23,038 nucleotides of DNA, from IMG/VR virus record IMGVR_UViG_3300042879_001480, positions 1-23,038 of that record, one strand, 5' to 3'. The stretch comes from a virus. This document shows, piece after piece, positions 7,775 through 22,646 of this stretch. The stretch's first letter is position 1. The number at the start of each line of letters is the position of its first letter. The notes beneath the pieces are model-generated. The model worked only from the letters and a program-made list of their open reading frames with translations. It was not told the origin of the DNA and did not search any database. Position numbers and translations under genes: made by a program.

Positions 7775-7788
7775 ACCTCAAAACCATG
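7774..7788 (+). repeat. Identical translation leader, copy 3
   Basis: Third exact copy of AACCTCAAAACCATG, before the putative ssDNA-annealing protein. Its first base is the last base of the upstream stop codon. Confidence 0.6.
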
Positions 7789-8343
7789 CACAAGTTTAAA
7801 ACCACCAACATCAAAGGGAAGGAATACGTTGAAGTTAATCAACGCCTCCTGTACTTCCGCAACGAACAAGCCTACGCTGGCTGGTCGTTGGAATCCGAAA
7901 TCTTTGACCTGCAACCCGACCGCTGCTGCGTCCGTGCGGTTATCCGGGACAACGAGGGTCGCATCCGTGCTACGGGCCACGCCTCCGAGGACCGAACCTC
8001 CAGCATGATTAATAAGACGAGTTACGTCGAGAACTGCGAAACCTCTGCTTGGGGCCGTGCCTTGGCCTGCATCGGTATCGGAATCGAAACGAGCATCGCA
8101 TCGTCCAACGAGGTGCAGATGGCTATTGCCCAGCAGAACCTTGGGGACCTCAACGACAAACTCGGACTGGTCCCTTCCTACGACGAACTGACCACCGCAA
8201 CCCTTAAGGCCGACTTCCTTGCATTGCTTGACAAACTACCAAAGGAGCAACAGGCGAAGTTTATGAAGGACATTGACCACATGACCCCTGCACGATTCGA
8301 GAAAGGCATCCAATTCATCCAAAACCAACTTGCGAAATCATGA
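7786..8343 (+). CDS. Putative ssDNA-annealing/recombination protein (Erf/Rad52-like, uncertain)
   Basis: The 185-aa product has an N-terminal beta-rich half (KEYVEVNQRLLYFRNE, GWSLESEIFDL, CCVRAVIRDNEGRIRATGHA) and then the stretch KTSYVENCETSAWGRALACIGIG followed by SNEVQMAI. A T/SxxENCETSAxGRALxxxGIG core of this kind occurs in phage proteins placed among single-strand annealing proteins (Erf/Sak-like), which pair complementary strands in phage recombination. A C-terminal helical part (residues ~125-185) follows. The longer frame from 7609 is not used because the ATG at 7786 has the repeated leader. Genes just downstream are coupled by ATGA overlaps. The annealing role is a likely but unproven call. 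Confidence 0.5.
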   Translation: MHKFKTTNIKGKEYVEVNQRLLYFRNEQAYAGWSLESEIFDLQPDRCCVRAVIRDNEGRIRATGHASEDRTSSMINKTSYVENCETSAWGRALACIGIGIETSIASSNEVQMAIAQQNLGDLNDKLGLVPSYDELTTATLKADFLALLDKLPKEQQAKFMKDIDHMTPARFEKGIQFIQNQLAKS

Positions 8344-16936: not shown

Positions 16937-17352
16937 TGGGAACCAGCAGAGGACACGGCAAATACATTGAAACTCCCGAAAAGATGTGGGAGTACTTTGA
17001 GGCATACCGGGCAGGGGTCAAGGCAAACCCTCGGACCAAGACGGTGTTCCCCGGCAAGGATGCTATCCCCCAGCATGAGCCTTTGGAGCGACCCTTGACC
17101 TTGGAAGGCTTTGAGAACTGGTGTGCAGATGCAGGTATCATTGATGGCCTTGAACACTACTTTGCCAACACGAAGGGCAACTACTCCGACTATTTAAGTA
17201 TCTGTTCACGCATAAAGCGAGTCATCCGCCAAGACCAAATCGAAGGGGGTATGGTCGGTCAGTACAACGCAAGCATCACCCAACGGCTGAACTCTTTGGT
17301 AGATAAGCAGGAGAATCAGGTCTTTATTGAACAATGGACCGAAGATGATTGA
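16936..17352 (+). CDS. terS: Terminase small subunit
   Basis: The 138-aa product matches small terminase subunits (DNA-packaging proteins) of Bacteroidetes phages: KYIETPEKMWEYFEAYRAGV at the N-terminus, then PLTLEGFENWCADAGII, a region with HYFANTKGNYSDYLSICSRI, and QDQIEGGMVGQYNASITQRL before the acidic tail. These form a helix-turn-helix and an oligomerisation core that recognises phage DNA for packaging. The stop and the terL start overlap (TGATG). Confidence 0.75.
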   Translation: MGTSRGHGKYIETPEKMWEYFEAYRAGVKANPRTKTVFPGKDAIPQHEPLERPLTLEGFENWCADAGIIDGLEHYFANTKGNYSDYLSICSRIKRVIRQDQIEGGMVGQYNASITQRLNSLVDKQENQVFIEQWTEDD

Positions 17353-18527
17353 TGAAGGTCATAAACACCACCGCCAAGCGGAAGATTGAATCGCTGACCC
17401 ATCGTAAACGGGTCATCCAAGGAGGGACCTCGGCCTCCAAGACCTTCAGCATTCTTTGCGTCCTCATCAAGCAAGCCTGCACGAAGAAGACCGAAATCAG
17501 CATTGTTGGGGAAACCGTGCCTCACCTTCGGAGGGGTGCGATTCGGGACTTCATCAAGATAATGATTGCCAAGGGCATCTTCGTTCCGGCAAGGTGGAAC
17601 AAGACCTTGCTGACCTACCAGTTCGCTAACCGTAGCACTATTGAGTTTTTCTCGGCTGACCAAGAGGCAAGGCTCCGGGGTGCAAGGAGGCAGGTGCTAT
17701 TCATCAACGAGGCGAACAACATCGACTTTGAATCTTACTATCAACTCGCCATCCGTACAAGCGAGGCCATCTACATCGACTTCAACCCAACTCACGAATT
17801 TTGGGCGCATACCGAGGTCTTGCGTGAGGACGATTCCGAACTGCTCATCCTAACCTACAACGACAACGAGGCTCTGCCTGATACCATCAAGAGGGACATT
17901 GAACTGAACCGCACCAAAGCCGAAACATCTGCCTATTGGGCGAACTGGTGGAAGGTGTACGGCCTTGGTCAGGTCGGGACGCTTCAGGGAGCCATCTACG
18001 AGGACTTCGAGGTGGTGGAGGGTATCGATGTCAGCCGTGCGAAATTCGTCGCCCTTGGGCTTGACTGGGGCTTTAGCAACGACCCAACCGCACTCGTAGC
18101 AATATATCGCCAAGGGGACTGCCTGCTCATCCAAGAACTACTGTACTCCACGGGCCTTACCAACCAAGACATCGCAGACAAGTTGCGGACGCTGGGCATC
18201 ACCCGGGCTTGGGAGATAGTGGCCGATTCAGCCGAACCCAAGTCCATCGAGGAAATCTACCGATTGGGGTTCAACATCAAGCCAGCGGAGAAAGGCCCCG
18301 ACTCGGTTCGGAACGGGATAGACATCCTGAAACGCTTTAAATTGCAGGTGACCAAGGACTCCACCAACCTTATCAAGGAACTACGCTCCTACACTTGGGC
18401 GACCGACAAGGAGGGCAAGAACACAGGGGTTCCGATTGACTCGTTCAACCACGCCTGCGATGCGATGCGGTATGTGGCACTCAACAAGTTAAGGGTCAGT
18501 AATTCAGGAAAGTATGTTGTTGTGTAA
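17352..18527 (+). CDS. terL: Terminase large subunit (packaging ATPase/nuclease)
   Basis: The 391-aa motor protein has an N-terminal ATPase with Walker A QGGTSASKT (residues 23-31) and Walker B VLFINEANN (E120), and a C-terminal RNase H-like nuclease with D238 (LGLDWGFSND), D292 (VADSAEP) and D370 (HACDAMRY). It translocates DNA into the procapsid and cuts it. The start ATG at 17352 overlaps the terS stop; a TTG three bases upstream is in frame but unnecessary. At 391 aa it is short but complete for this PBSX-like group. Its stop lies inside a TAACTTTG box just before a small membrane gene. Confidence 0.9.
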   Translation: MKVINTTAKRKIESLTHRKRVIQGGTSASKTFSILCVLIKQACTKKTEISIVGETVPHLRRGAIRDFIKIMIAKGIFVPARWNKTLLTYQFANRSTIEFFSADQEARLRGARRQVLFINEANNIDFESYYQLAIRTSEAIYIDFNPTHEFWAHTEVLREDDSELLILTYNDNEALPDTIKRDIELNRTKAETSAYWANWWKVYGLGQVGTLQGAIYEDFEVVEGIDVSRAKFVALGLDWGFSNDPTALVAIYRQGDCLLIQELLYSTGLTNQDIADKLRTLGITRAWEIVADSAEPKSIEEIYRLGFNIKPAEKGPDSVRNGIDILKRFKLQVTKDSTNLIKELRSYTWATDKEGKNTGVPIDSFNHACDAMRYVALNKLRVSNSGKYVVV

Positions 18528-18536: not shown

Positions 18537-18638
18537 ATGAACCCCGAACGCATCCTTGACCTGCTAATCGAAATCGGGAAGACGGTTGCAGCCATTTTCT
18601 TCATCATCACCCTTCTAACCCTCCTTTGGACTTTATGA
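18537..18638 (+). CDS. 33-aa single-pass membrane protein
   Basis: MNPERILDLLIEIGKTV followed by a membrane helix (AAIFFIITLLTLLWTL). It is placed between terL and the first glycosyltransferase, whose start overlaps its stop (ATGA), which supports a true coupled gene. It may anchor or recruit the cassette enzymes at the membrane; this is only a suggestion from position. Confidence 0.5.
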   Translation: MNPERILDLLIEIGKTVAAIFFIITLLTLLWTL

Positions 18639-19288
18639 AAGTCGTCCACTACTACCACATCTATTGCGGAGGGAACTGGCAGTTGATACTCAACCAGCAC
18701 ATGATGGCGGTCTGCAACTACGGCCTCATCGAGGTCTTGGACGAAATCCGTGTAGGCATTGTCGGTCCACCCGAACAACGCAAAGCGGTCAAGGAGGTGC
18801 TGGAAGGTTCAATGGTGGCTGATAAGGTCAAGGTCGTAGTAACACGGACCAACGCTTGGGAGCAGGCGACGCTTACCGAGATGTACCGGGCGAGCCAAGA
18901 AGAGGAAGCCGTGTACCTGTACGCCCATACGAAGGGGGCAAGCGACCCGTCCCTCATCAACCAACTTTGGAATCGCAGCATGACTTTCTTTAACGTCGTG
19001 GCATGGGAACGCTGCCTGCAACTGCTCGAAGGCGTGGATGCGGTCGGATGCCATTGGATAACCAAGGAGCAGTTCCCTCACATGGCAGACGCAAACAACC
19101 CCGAAGGCTACCCCTACTTTGGTGGAACCTATTGGTGGGCCAAGTCATCCCACATCAAGGAACTTGGTGAACCAGTACGGGACCACCGTTGGCAGGCAGA
19201 ACATTGGATTGGAAAGAAACCCGATACCAAGGTCCACGACACCAACCCCGGATGGCCGGGTCCCGAAAAATTTGTAATCACGTTTTAG
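18635..19288 (+). CDS. Glycosyltransferase-like protein
   Basis: The 217-aa product starts at the ATGA junction (a TTG 9 bases upstream is in frame but not needed). It resembles small glycosyltransferase-related proteins with VVHYYHIYCGGNW at the N-terminus, a YLYAHTKGASDPS segment (residues ~94-106), a W...M..F....WE.CL helix and a DAVGCHW...YFGGTYWWAKSSHI acceptor-side region. No DxD is obvious. It is followed after one base by a GT-A enzyme, so it probably acts in the same glycosylation route. Activity is inferred from resemblance and context. Confidence 0.6.
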   Translation: MKVVHYYHIYCGGNWQLILNQHMMAVCNYGLIEVLDEIRVGIVGPPEQRKAVKEVLEGSMVADKVKVVVTRTNAWEQATLTEMYRASQEEEAVYLYAHTKGASDPSLINQLWNRSMTFFNVVAWERCLQLLEGVDAVGCHWITKEQFPHMADANNPEGYPYFGGTYWWAKSSHIKELGEPVRDHRWQAEHWIGKKPDTKVHDTNPGWPGPEKFVITF

Positions 19289-19289
19289 C

Positions 19290-20033
19290 ATGAAGGTCCC
19301 TATCCTCATTACCAACTTTAATCTTTTCACTTGGCCCAAGGCAATGGTCAAGGAACTGCAACGGATGAAGGACTGCGGTCCTATCATTATCATTGACAAC
19401 GGTTCAACTTACCGCCCGACCTTGGAGTGGTACGATTCGCTAAAGGGGAATGAGGACGTTTCGGTAGTTCGTACCGGGCAGAACTTGGGACATCTTGTGG
19501 CATGGAGGCTCGGATTTGACAAACGCATCAAAGCCGATTTTAACTATCCAGACTACATCGTAACCGACCCCGACCTCGACCTTTCGGGATGCCCTGACGA
19601 CACCATCGTACGGATGCGTGAACTTTGGTACGATTCGCCTTCCTACCCCTACTTCTACCGGGACGAAGAAGGCAAGGAATTTAACGGGGTGGAGTTCAAC
19701 GTCAAGGACAAGATTGGCCTTGGCATTTGTGTTGACGATGTTCCCGAAAACGCCCTATTCTTCCAACCTGGTGAACATCGCTACCACAAGCAACCGACCT
19801 ATGGCAACCTTCGCTTGGCTCCAGTTGATACGACCTTCGCCTTCTACCATGCCGACACCTATCAGGTCTGCATTAGCGGTGCGAGGACGATGACCCCCTA
19901 CGAGGTCAGGCATCTGCCCTACTACATTACCCCCTTAGATATGGAGTCGGACTGGGAGTTTCGGCAGTACCTTGACAAAGCAAACCACTCCAGCACGGCT
20001 AAAAAAATAGCCGATGGACTTCAAATAGGATAA
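19290..20033 (+). CDS. GT-A (family 2-like) glycosyltransferase
   Basis: The 247-aa product has GT-A features: first strand PILITNFNLFTWPKAMV, nucleotide-binding IIIIDNGSTYRPTLEWY, RTGQNLGHLVAW, and the metal/donor-binding VTDPDLDL (DPD). A later APVDTTFAFYHADTY segment is shared with its paralogue at 20527. Such enzymes transfer a sugar from a nucleotide-sugar donor. Possible targets are virion proteins, host surface glycans or DNA; nothing in the sequence decides. It sits between the first glycosyltransferase-like gene and the methyltransferase. Confidence 0.75.
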   Translation: MKVPILITNFNLFTWPKAMVKELQRMKDCGPIIIIDNGSTYRPTLEWYDSLKGNEDVSVVRTGQNLGHLVAWRLGFDKRIKADFNYPDYIVTDPDLDLSGCPDDTIVRMRELWYDSPSYPYFYRDEEGKEFNGVEFNVKDKIGLGICVDDVPENALFFQPGEHRYHKQPTYGNLRLAPVDTTFAFYHADTYQVCISGARTMTPYEVRHLPYYITPLDMESDWEFRQYLDKANHSSTAKKIADGLQIG

Positions 20034-20034
20034 T

Positions 20035-20523
20035 ATGCCATACTCACACCCGTTCCACAAGGACTTTGTTGGCAACCATATCCGCTCGGTTCTAACCGAA
20101 TCCGACCGGGTTCTTGACGTTGGTTGCGGTTGCGGAACTTACGCCCTACTGCTTCCCGACATCAAAATGGATGGCATCGAGATTCACGAGCCGTATGTCA
20201 GCCGATTCGGTTTGCAGGACCTTTACCAAACCCTGCATATTGGGGATATTCGTGAATTTGATTTTTCGGCCTACACCTACCTGATTATGGGCGATGTCTT
20301 TGAGCATTTAACCTTTAACGAGGCGAGGCGCCTGCTTACCCGAATGAATGGCAAGAGGGTCATGATTGCCGTGCCTTATATGTACAGGCAGGGCGAATGG
20401 GAAGGGAATGTGTACGAAACGCATTGGCAACCCGACCTGACCCCCGAAGTGATGGCGTTGAGATACCCCGAACTGAAATTGCTCGTTGGGGATGCGGTAT
20501 ACGGCTACTACATAAACTACTGA
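20035..20523 (+). CDS. Class I SAM-dependent methyltransferase
   Basis: The 162-aa protein has the SAM-binding motif I VLDVGCGCGTYALLLP (residues ~23-38), an acidic end of strand 2 (GIEIHEPYV), GDIREFDF and motif IV-like LIMGDVFEHLTFNEA. It is a small Rossmann methyltransferase. Placed between two glycosyltransferases one base and three bases away, it most likely methylates a sugar, but a DNA or protein substrate cannot be excluded; there is no DPPY/NPPY motif of an amino-DNA methylase. Confidence 0.75.
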   Translation: MPYSHPFHKDFVGNHIRSVLTESDRVLDVGCGCGTYALLLPDIKMDGIEIHEPYVSRFGLQDLYQTLHIGDIREFDFSAYTYLIMGDVFEHLTFNEARRLLTRMNGKRVMIAVPYMYRQGEWEGNVYETHWQPDLTPEVMALRYPELKLLVGDAVYGYYINY

Positions 20524-20526
20524 CCT

Positions 20527-20576
20527 ATGAAACTCCAAGACCTGACCATCAACCAGTTCCAGCGTATTGGAGCCAT
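20527..20576 (+). repeat. Direct repeat of the chaperone gene 5' end (copy 1)
   Basis: Fifty bases from the ATG to GGAGCCAT repeat those at 21222-21271 with four mismatches, three of them silent. The match stops at the internal ATG (20575) that would be the original glycosyltransferase start. Confidence 0.9.
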
Positions 20577-21225
20577 GGGCATCCCCGTCATCATCAACAA
20601 CCGCAACCTGCTGACGTGGCCCAAAGCGATGGTCAGGGACTTGAGCAAGTGGGAGGGGATTGGGGACATCTACATCGTTGACAACGGTTCAACCTACGAA
20701 CCTTTGCTGGAGTGGTACGCCACCACCCCCTGCAAGGTCGTAATGCTTGGCGAAAACTTGGGCCATCAAGCCCCATGGACTTCGGGCTTGGTGCAACAAC
20801 TGGGAGAGCCTTACTATGCAGTCACGGACCCGGACCTTGACCTTTACAAGACCAGCAAGAGGACGATTCCCATGTGCTTGGAGTGGTTGCAACAATTCCC
20901 CCAAGCAGGCAAGGTCGGCCTGTCGCTACGATGGGATGACGTGCCTCCAAGGTCGTCGTACTACACCCATGTGAACAACTACGAGGCGACCCGTCAGCGT
21001 AATTCAAGGGTTATCATGGCAGCAAGGGTTGACGTGCCTATCGACACGACCTTTGCCGTTTACAATCGGCAGGAGTACTTCATCGGTGGGGTTTCGTTGC
21101 TTGAGTCAGCGAGGCACATTCCTTGGTACTATTCGGAGAAAGAACGCAAGGCTGATAAGGAGTTCAGCCAGTACCTTGCATCGGCATCGTCGGCATCGTC
21201 CTACAAAACCTTCTTGAAACTATGA
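20527..21225 (+). CDS. GT-A glycosyltransferase fused to the chaperone N-terminal tag
   Basis: A 232-aa paralogue of the 19290 enzyme sharing LLTWPKAMV, DNGSTYEPLLEWY, GENLGH, VTDPDLDL, DDVP and PIDTTFAVYNR. Unlike that enzyme it begins with 16 extra residues, MKLQDLTINQFQRIGA, that match the first 16 residues of the next gene except N9/D9. The paralogue's start corresponds to the internal Met at 20575 (MGIPVIINN), so the tag was joined in frame to a complete enzyme. At the DNA level 46 of the first 50 bases are the same as at 21222. The stop overlaps the next start (ATGA). Function as a glycosyltransferase is likely; the tag's role is unknown. Confidence 0.75.
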   Translation: MKLQDLTINQFQRIGAMGIPVIINNRNLLTWPKAMVRDLSKWEGIGDIYIVDNGSTYEPLLEWYATTPCKVVMLGENLGHQAPWTSGLVQQLGEPYYAVTDPDLDLYKTSKRTIPMCLEWLQQFPQAGKVGLSLRWDDVPPRSSYYTHVNNYEATRQRNSRVIMAARVDVPIDTTFAVYNRQEYFIGGVSLLESARHIPWYYSEKERKADKEFSQYLASASSASSYKTFLKL

Positions 21226-21271
21226 AACTCCAAGACCTGACCATCGACCAGTTCCAACGCATCGGAGCCAT
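21222..21271 (+). repeat. Direct repeat of the chaperone gene 5' end (copy 2)
   Basis: Second copy, at the start of the tail assembly chaperone gene, 695 bases downstream of the first. The two copies flank the second glycosyltransferase exactly. Confidence 0.9.
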
Positions 21272-21791
21272 TGAGTTCTCCAGCGTCCTTGGGGACTACG
21301 ACAAGCGTGCAGGAGTCGTCGCAATCGTTGAGGGGGTCAATATATCACTCGTCCGAGAGATGCCCGCCAAGAGCGTCCTAAAGCGTTACAAGGCCATTAT
21401 CAGCGAGTGGAACGCATTACCTGCCTTGGGTTACAAGCGGAAGTTCAAAGCCGGGGGCAAGTGGTGGATTCCGACGGTGTTCACGGATGAGTTGACTGCT
21501 GGGCAGTTGATTGAACTCATGGACGCAAACACCACGGACGAAAAGCAACTGCTCCAAAACCTCCACCGAATTATGGCGACCTTGTGCCGGGAAGGCGGTC
21601 TATTCGGATTCTTTCCGAAAAAGTACGACGGGGCTGCCCATGCCGAGCGAGCCGAACTGATGAAGAAACACGCCAAGGTGGGCGACGTTTGGGGGGTTGT
21701 TAGTTTTTTTTTGTTAAGTTCCGAATCCTACTTGAAAGTTTTGACCGACTATTCCAAGCACCTGATGACGAAAGCAGGGGAGTTGACGTAA
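21222..21791 (+). CDS. Tail assembly chaperone, short form
   Basis: The 189-aa product is the unshifted form of a tail assembly chaperone (G-like). Its N-terminus MKLQDLTIDQFQRIGAI and the core around VLKRYKAIISEWNALP, GGKWWIPTVFTDELTAGQ and LHRIMATLCREGG match Bacteroidetes phage proteins of this type. Chaperones of this kind bind the tape measure protein while tail tube subunits assemble. The short form continues after the nine-T run as VSFFLLSSESYLKVLTDYSK. It directly precedes tail genes and its start overlaps the preceding glycosyltransferase stop. Confidence 0.7.
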   Translation: MKLQDLTIDQFQRIGAIEFSSVLGDYDKRAGVVAIVEGVNISLVREMPAKSVLKRYKAIISEWNALPALGYKRKFKAGGKWWIPTVFTDELTAGQLIELMDANTTDEKQLLQNLHRIMATLCREGGLFGFFPKKYDGAAHAERAELMKKHAKVGDVWGVVSFFLLSSESYLKVLTDYSKHLMTKAGELT

Positions 21792-21967
21792 GCCCTCTTG
21801 CCGGGTACGGATGGCTGATGGTCGTCTGGAGGATGGCTAACAAGGACGTACTGAAATTTGACGCCATCTTTGCGATGAAGGCGGTAGAGTTTCTCAATTA
21901 CGCACTCTTGATTCACGACATCTTGGAAGCCGAACGGATGGAAGCGGAGCGAGCGAGGCGCAGATAG
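21222..21967 (+). CDS. Tail assembly chaperone, -1 frameshift extended form (G-T-like)
   Basis: A -1 shift on the T run at 21704-21712 joins the first ~164 codons to a second frame that is open from 21713 to the TAG at 21965-21967, giving about 248 residues. The added ~84 residues read PDDESRGVDVSPLAGYGWLM (part), VVWRMANKDVLKFDAIFAM and HDILEAERMEAERARRR, similar to the T parts of other chaperones, which contain a YGWL..ixRLA..D core. The T part is expected to contact tail tube protein. Short and long forms made in a fixed ratio are conserved in long-tailed phages. Confidence 0.75.
21704..21713 (+). other. Programmed -1 ribosomal frameshift site (T9G)
   Basis: Nine T's followed by G contain the in-phase slippery heptamers T TTT TTT (21704-21710) and T TTT TTG (21707-21713). 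Shifting back one base here leads into the open downstream frame of the chaperone. A homopolymer sequencing error is the alternative but is unlikely given the gene's type and position. Confidence 0.75.
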
Positions 21968-21998: not shown

Positions 21999-22646
21999 AT
22001 GGAAACAACCATTCTCGCCAATGGGCAACCAGTAGGTAAGTTCGGTAGCGGTTCGATGAAAGGCATCGACCAAACCGCCTTGGAGGGCATTGGTTCAATC
22101 GTTGGACCCAAGGGTGGAGGCAAGTCGCCAACCCATGATGTCTTGGTCAAGTGGATAGAACGGGTCATCGAACTTGCGAAGAAAAACCTCGAAGCAGCCA
22201 ACGCAAATGCAGGGGGAACGCTCTCCGCATCTATCGTGCCGGAGGACATCGAACTATCGGCAAAGCAAATCGTCGTGGCTATCATGGCCAACCCCTATTG
22301 GAAGTACGTAGACCAAGGGGTGCGAGGCAAAACGTCAAGCCTAAAGGCTCCGAGGTCGCCATTCCAATACAGGGACAAGTTCCCACCCGCTCAAGCAATG
22401 GCCGATTGGATAGCCAACAAGGAAAAACTTGTTGTGCCGACCTATTCGCGTGAACTCAAGCGGATGCGGACGAAGCAGGAGCAAGGGTTGGTGGATGGCA
22501 GGTCGGTTGCCTATTGGGTATTCCAGCGAGGAACACGGGCCACGAACTTCATGTCTAACGCCCTATCCCCCGAAATGATAGAGGTCCTTACCGAAAATAT
22601 CGCAGAGGCCCTTGGCAAATCCATAAGCGTAGCAACCAAACTATAA
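21999..22646 (+). CDS. Tail-associated/HK97 gp10-like protein
   Basis: The 215-aa product has a long N-terminal helix (VKWIERVIELAKKNLEAANA), a short beta region (TLSASIVPEDIEL, QIVVAIMANPYWKYVDQGVRG) and a C-terminal helical part with PFQYRDKFPPAQAMADWI and SVAYWVFQRGT. The pattern YWKYVDQGVRG followed by PF.YRDK.PP and an AY-type helix is seen in neck or tail completion proteins of the HK97 gp10 kind. It follows the tail assembly chaperone by 31 bases and precedes another structural gene by 1 base. Role inferred from pattern and context. Confidence 0.55.
   Translation: METTILANGQPVGKFGSGSMKGIDQTALEGIGSIVGPKGGGKSPTHDVLVKWIERVIELAKKNLEAANANAGGTLSASIVPEDIELSAKQIVVAIMANPYWKYVDQGVRGKTSSLKAPRSPFQYRDKFPPAQAMADWIANKEKLVVPTYSRELKRMRTKQEQGLVDGRSVAYWVFQRGTRATNFMSNALSPEMIEVLTENIAEALGKSISVATKL

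Follow-up and report, generated by a model that had tools for sequence, protein, structure and literature searches.

Phage recombinases are held to drive the formation of mosaics at short or diverged homology (PMC3945230), and RecET-mediated recombination has been described for stretches of 5-13 bp, as cited in PMC2327257. The gene of the lambda tail assembly chaperone gpG/gpGT contains a slippery run at which a -1 frameshift occurs (PMC5009743). Phage-encoded glycosyltransferase genes have been annotated in mycobacteriophages (e.g. PMC11256854). Such enzymes are usually suggested to modify virion proteins.

We analysed a stretch of 23,038 nucleotides from a virus (IMG/VR record IMGVR_UViG_3300042879_001480), below referred to as the window, where a glycosyltransferase gene is joined in-frame to the beginning of a candidate chaperone gene. 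Like described phage mosaics (PMC2327257, PMC3945230), the locus has sharp module borders (about 99% vs. about 90% identity), conserved synteny and joints at gene borders, together with a possible microhomology of a few bases. Unlike these mosaics, the joint of the window lies 16 codons inside a gene and has produced an in-frame fusion while a second copy stays intact, and no recombinase could be named in the window. Like lambda gpG/gpGT (PMC5009743), the chaperone gene adjoins structural genes and has a conserved 3' run of T with an overlapping -1 frame. However, it has no annotated family match (Pfam, PHROGs), it is situated close behind the terminase gene and the cassette. Moreover, none of the genes in the window was recognised as a tape measure gene. 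The glycosyltransferases resemble those of mycobacteriophages (e.g. PMC11256854) in being accessory genes near structural genes. In contrast to the latter, the cassette content here varies between close relatives.

All features of the region are on the + strand. The gene of the terminase large subunit (17349-18527), identified by Pfam and PHROGs, is followed by the conserved gene GTa (18635-19288), which forms the left edge of a variable cassette region. Then come the glycosyltransferase paralogue GT1 (19290-20033), the methyltransferase-like gene MT (20035-20523), the glycosyltransferase gene GT2 proper (20575-21225) and a complete gpG-like tail assembly chaperone gene of 189 codons (21222-21791). 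The next gene (21999-22646) belongs to phrog_29822, whose function class is unknown in PHROGs. The similarity of GT1 and GT2 to Pfam Glycos_transf_2 stays below the cut-off. The two have in common an invariant DPDLDL motif, and a search with a poor structure model of GT2 (pLDDT 53) found nucleotide-sugar enzymes and EXTL2/exostosin as weak fold matches. Both are likely to be GT-A glycosyltransferases. The structure model of the chaperone is poor as well (pLDDT 49). A slippery run of nine T (21704-21712) near the 3' end of the chaperone gene is retained in nearly all relatives, and a -1 shift at this run leads into a frame that is open to the stop at 21965-21967, as in the gpGT extension. This combination is the hallmark of gpG/gpGT (PMC5009743), and thus the name given to the gene in an earlier sequence-only reading is reasonable; a programmed frameshift of this type is probable in a family that lacks annotation. 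The nearest matches of the terminase are in Flavobacterium phages (49%), those of the portal protein in Nonlabens phages (about 30%), and the host probably belongs to Bacteroidota. No relatives of the chaperone or of GT2 were found in annotated phage records, and no relatives of the chaperone in bacterial genomes. Elsewhere in the window, near single-strand-binding and primase genes, the interval 7786-8343 encodes a protein of 185 amino acids with the motif ETSAWGRALA. It was considered as a recombinase and rejected, having no named match and falling only into PHROG families of unknown function (phrog_11717, E 1e-32).

A direct repeat of 52 nt (20525-20576 and 21220-21271), longer than any other in the region, has 48 of the 52 bases equal (92%). 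Its two copies border GT2 exactly, and the stop codon TGA of GT2 (21223-21225) overlaps the start codon ATG of the chaperone gene at 21222, whose first 48 nt are the second copy. The 48 coding bases differ between the copies at four positions, three of them silent. Codon 9 is AAC in the first copy and GAC in the second one (N/D), and the silent changes are in codons 12, 13 and 14. The first copy (20527-20574; MKLQDLTINQFQRIGA) corresponds to the first 16 codons of a chaperone allele and is continued in-frame by GT2; below we call it the tag. The open frame 20527-21225 has 232 codons. Its residue 17 is the methionine at 20575, which is aligned to the first methionine of GT1 at 19290 (39% identity between the paralogues). 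In all these details, namely the repeat with its mismatches, the exact bordering and the alignment of the internal methionine, the sequence-only reading was correct.

The same joint is present in three IMG/VR contigs besides the window, found both by a search with the joint and by a search with the peptide, and this recurrence excludes a chance origin. One of the three (L001/L157) matches the window at 100% identity and could thus represent the same virus; the three contigs and the window were treated as one event. The contigs come from metagenomes of a highly mosaic group, and the shared chaperone start is a possible switch point for an assembler. However, a repeat created by the erroneous assembly of two strains is hardly credible, as the identical joint occurs in contigs from three metagenome identifiers with different surrounding alleles, and it does not coincide with a long shared sequence.

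Scans of IMG/VR yielded 107 relatives of GT2 and 422 relatives of the chaperone, of which the best 80 of each were retained. No further loci were added when a profile was used to look for more distant relatives of GT2. The following contig counts are approximate, duplicates having been removed by the sequence near the chaperone start. The order terminase-GTa-X-GT2-chaperone, with an untagged GT2, was observed in 51 distinct contigs (and five incomplete ones), the order terminase-GTa-GT1-MT-chaperone, without GT2, in 15 distinct contigs, and terminase-GTa followed by other genes and the chaperone in 80 distinct contigs. GT1-MT and GT2 occur together in only four cases of this tally: the window with L001/L157, L002, L003/L158, and L028/L177. 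In nearly all retained GT2 loci, the untagged gene starts at the equivalent of Met17, 1-3 bases past the stop codon of an unrelated upstream gene, and its end overlaps the chaperone start in the same way as that of GT2 in the window.

In general, the stretch from GTa to the chaperone is variable, with at least ten gene combinations swapping among close relatives (L087, L091, L096, L113, L189, L004), and by eye several of these genes are methyltransferase- or glycosyltransferase-like. The GT1-MT and X-GT2 cassettes are of near-equal size (1242 and 1240 nt). One copy of GT1 (L107:1974-2710) is split by a frame change, with residues 1-176 and 168-247 in separate frames; the gene may be decaying, or the split may stem from faulty assembly.

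The left half of the joint can be traced to the arrangement without GT2. Compared with L117, the window shows about 90% identity in GTa, which rises abruptly to about 99% at 19290 and remains so up to the tag; GT1 and MT form a sharply bounded module. In about 15 relatives the stop codon of MT is directly followed by the chaperone start. The seam between MT and the chaperone in L117 (CTACTACATAAACTACTGACCTATGAAACTCCAAGACCTGACCATC) coincides with the seam of the window letter for letter, from the MT stop codon through the next three bases to base 24 of the chaperone gene. The chaperone alleles nearest to the tag have two (L052) or three (L101, L067, L028, L046) differences, and the tag codons 12-14 (CAG CGT ATT) co-occur in the alleles of L052 and L046.

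The sequence-only reading had proposed that GT2 entered an intact chaperone gene at codon 17 and that the 5' part was copied in the process. Part of this stands: the tag is a chaperone 5' end, the joint lies at codon 16/17, and neither gene has lost its start. Repeats bordering GT2 exactly are also the geometry expected of an insertion with target duplication. However, an untagged GT2 is commonly found immediately before the chaperone gene (about 55 contigs), and the left flank and the seam match the MT-chaperone genomes, the left copy having come with the GT1-MT module of another lineage. Moreover, there is no integrase, transposase or homing nuclease between the repeats. The insertion is disfavoured, and we consider it very improbable.

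The same reading took the mainly silent differences between the copies as a sign of selection on the peptide. All three silent bases that separate the copies are present in natural chaperone alleles. They are ordinary chaperone polymorphism and therefore give no sign of selection on the tag; judging by these alleles, they predate the fusion. The sole change private to the tag is a replacement, D9N. Asparagine at position 9 is absent from 152 chaperone sequences (a count that includes duplicate loci), and aspartate is invariant in a family alignment reaching down to 79% identity.

The joint lies at 20568-20576, and its right half can be traced to the genomes in which an untagged GT2 precedes the chaperone. 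The chaperone sequence at this position is GGAGCCATTGAG. One upstream context of untagged GT2 (L020, L021, L031) is TATTGAGCCATGGGC, which has GAGCCAT (20570-20576) in common with chaperone codons 15-17, and the commoner context TTCTAACCATGGGC shares CCAT. The microhomology would therefore measure 4-7 bp, according to the GT2 context of the parent, and on this comparison the crossover point cannot be placed exactly within the shared bases.

Hence the tagged GT2 is very probably a recombination scar left by module exchange between two virus arrangements. One parent would have had the order GTa-GT1-MT-chaperone, with a chaperone allele carrying AAC in codon 9 and CAG CGT ATT directly after MT. 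The other would have had GTa-X-GT2-chaperone, with an untagged GT2 that has GAGCCATGGGC and otherwise a window-like sequence. A crossover at a few shared bases, presumably by a microhomology mechanism, would have left the chaperone gene of the first parent after codon 16 and continued at the GT2 start codon of the second parent. Placed at GAGCCAT or CCAT, it would yield the window sequence exactly, with the frame kept by chance. The product would contain both modules, a 48-nt chaperone stub in-frame to GT2 and one complete chaperone gene. The evidence bearing directly on this exchange consists of the two parental orders, each found without the joint, the identical left seam, the untagged GT2 start and a different scar elsewhere. 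However, the actual parents are not among the contigs compared: N9 is missing from every chaperone allele, and besides the L020 type, which offers the best microhomology, there are other GT2 contexts.

The other scar is in L028/L177, the only contig besides the tagged ones with both modules. Here MT is followed by the first nine codons of the chaperone gene, which lead into part of a third cassette gene and then into the last codons of X (L028:3930-4012); GT2 comes next, at its normal start. The third-cassette piece encodes IDYHSGNNRVD, as in L106 and L113, and CCATCGAC is shared at that joint. Thus both lineages that combine the modules keep a chaperone stub between them, with different lengths and joints, the second scar being known from a single contig.

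The tag peptide is not a general gene start, an idea rejected after a degenerate search for the 16 residues followed by methionine gave matches in the three tagged contigs only. Among the 287 chaperone-like starts listed, many of which repeat the same contigs, the two scars are the only ones with non-chaperone continuations. This was the check suggested by the sequence-only reading, a search for the peptide in front of unrelated genes, and there are none among the matches listed; the peptide belongs to the chaperone.

The joint most likely arose once, since the three tagged types share it together with the private N9; independent origins were rejected for the same reason. A Fisher test of scar against module combination was not counted as evidence, as the tagged contigs share one event. 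The GT1-MT-tag parts of the three types differ little. The GT2 cores are 28-38 bases apart and mostly closer to untagged GT2 than to each other. This pattern of differences is most simply read as homologous recombination within GT2 that, after the single fusion, swapped the right half with other GT2 alleles. Between the tagged genomes, dN of GT2 is about 0.006-0.014 compared with dS of 0.20-0.26, and thus the enzyme is still under purifying selection and seems to tolerate whatever the tag does.

Translation is likely to start at 20527, which would give a protein with 16 extra residues, because the chaperone start context is intact and that of Met17 is altered. The 20 nt before the ATG at 20527 are the same as the 20 nt before the chaperone ATG in L117 and L111, and near Met17 the neighbouring stop codon has been lost. 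The predicted unpaired fraction at positions -20 to -1 is 0.39 for Met17 vs. 0.51-0.76 in five of six untagged starts; the sixth (L061), at 0.29, is as paired as Met17, and the folding differences are modest. One possibility is that the stub has been kept as a translation start for GT2, the peptide itself having no role. The authentic chaperone context at 20527 and the predicted lower accessibility of GT2's own start, now without a neighbouring stop, are in line with this. However, the same observations are compatible with a recombination scar, and there is no sign of an advantage over the ancestral coupled start. We regard such a leader role as unlikely, although less so than the other alternatives.

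Another suggestion is that the 16 residues are under selection because they recruit GT2 to the tail assembly complex, where the enzyme might, for instance, glycosylate tail subunits during assembly. The frame has been retained, the tag is identical or one silent base apart in three divergent tagged contigs, and the protein whose N-terminus it represents is a plausible partner of tail proteins. AlphaFold predicts a helix for the peptide, with pLDDT below 50. However, the same enzyme is maintained by selection at the same position in about 55 relatives that lack the tag, the tag carries D9N, at a position invariant in the chaperone family, and the silent differences from the neighbouring gene predate the fusion. 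A single silent change among the carriers is too little to show selection on the tag. A selected tag is thus given little credence, and the idea that it delivers the enzyme to the tail is unsupported and equally doubtful. It is just as improbable that a chance fusion was later co-opted, with a chaperone-derived helix docking GT2 to tail proteins and altering the set of glycosylated virion proteins, so that the joint spread in divergent viruses.

The tag is a truncated chaperone 5' end and looks like a harmless leftover of module exchange, whose 16 residues would be translated from 20527 and tolerated by the enzyme. The event seems to be a genuine and good specimen of a known kind, an in-frame fusion made by module exchange. 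It is a warning that an N-terminal copy of a neighbouring gene, or mostly silent differences between such copies, need not mean a selected targeting tag. Module exchange makes chimeric proteins, and here both parental orders, the joint and a second, differing scar are visible in environmental viruses. If it is true that the extra residues alter the target of the enzyme, the locus would show how scars become new protein parts.
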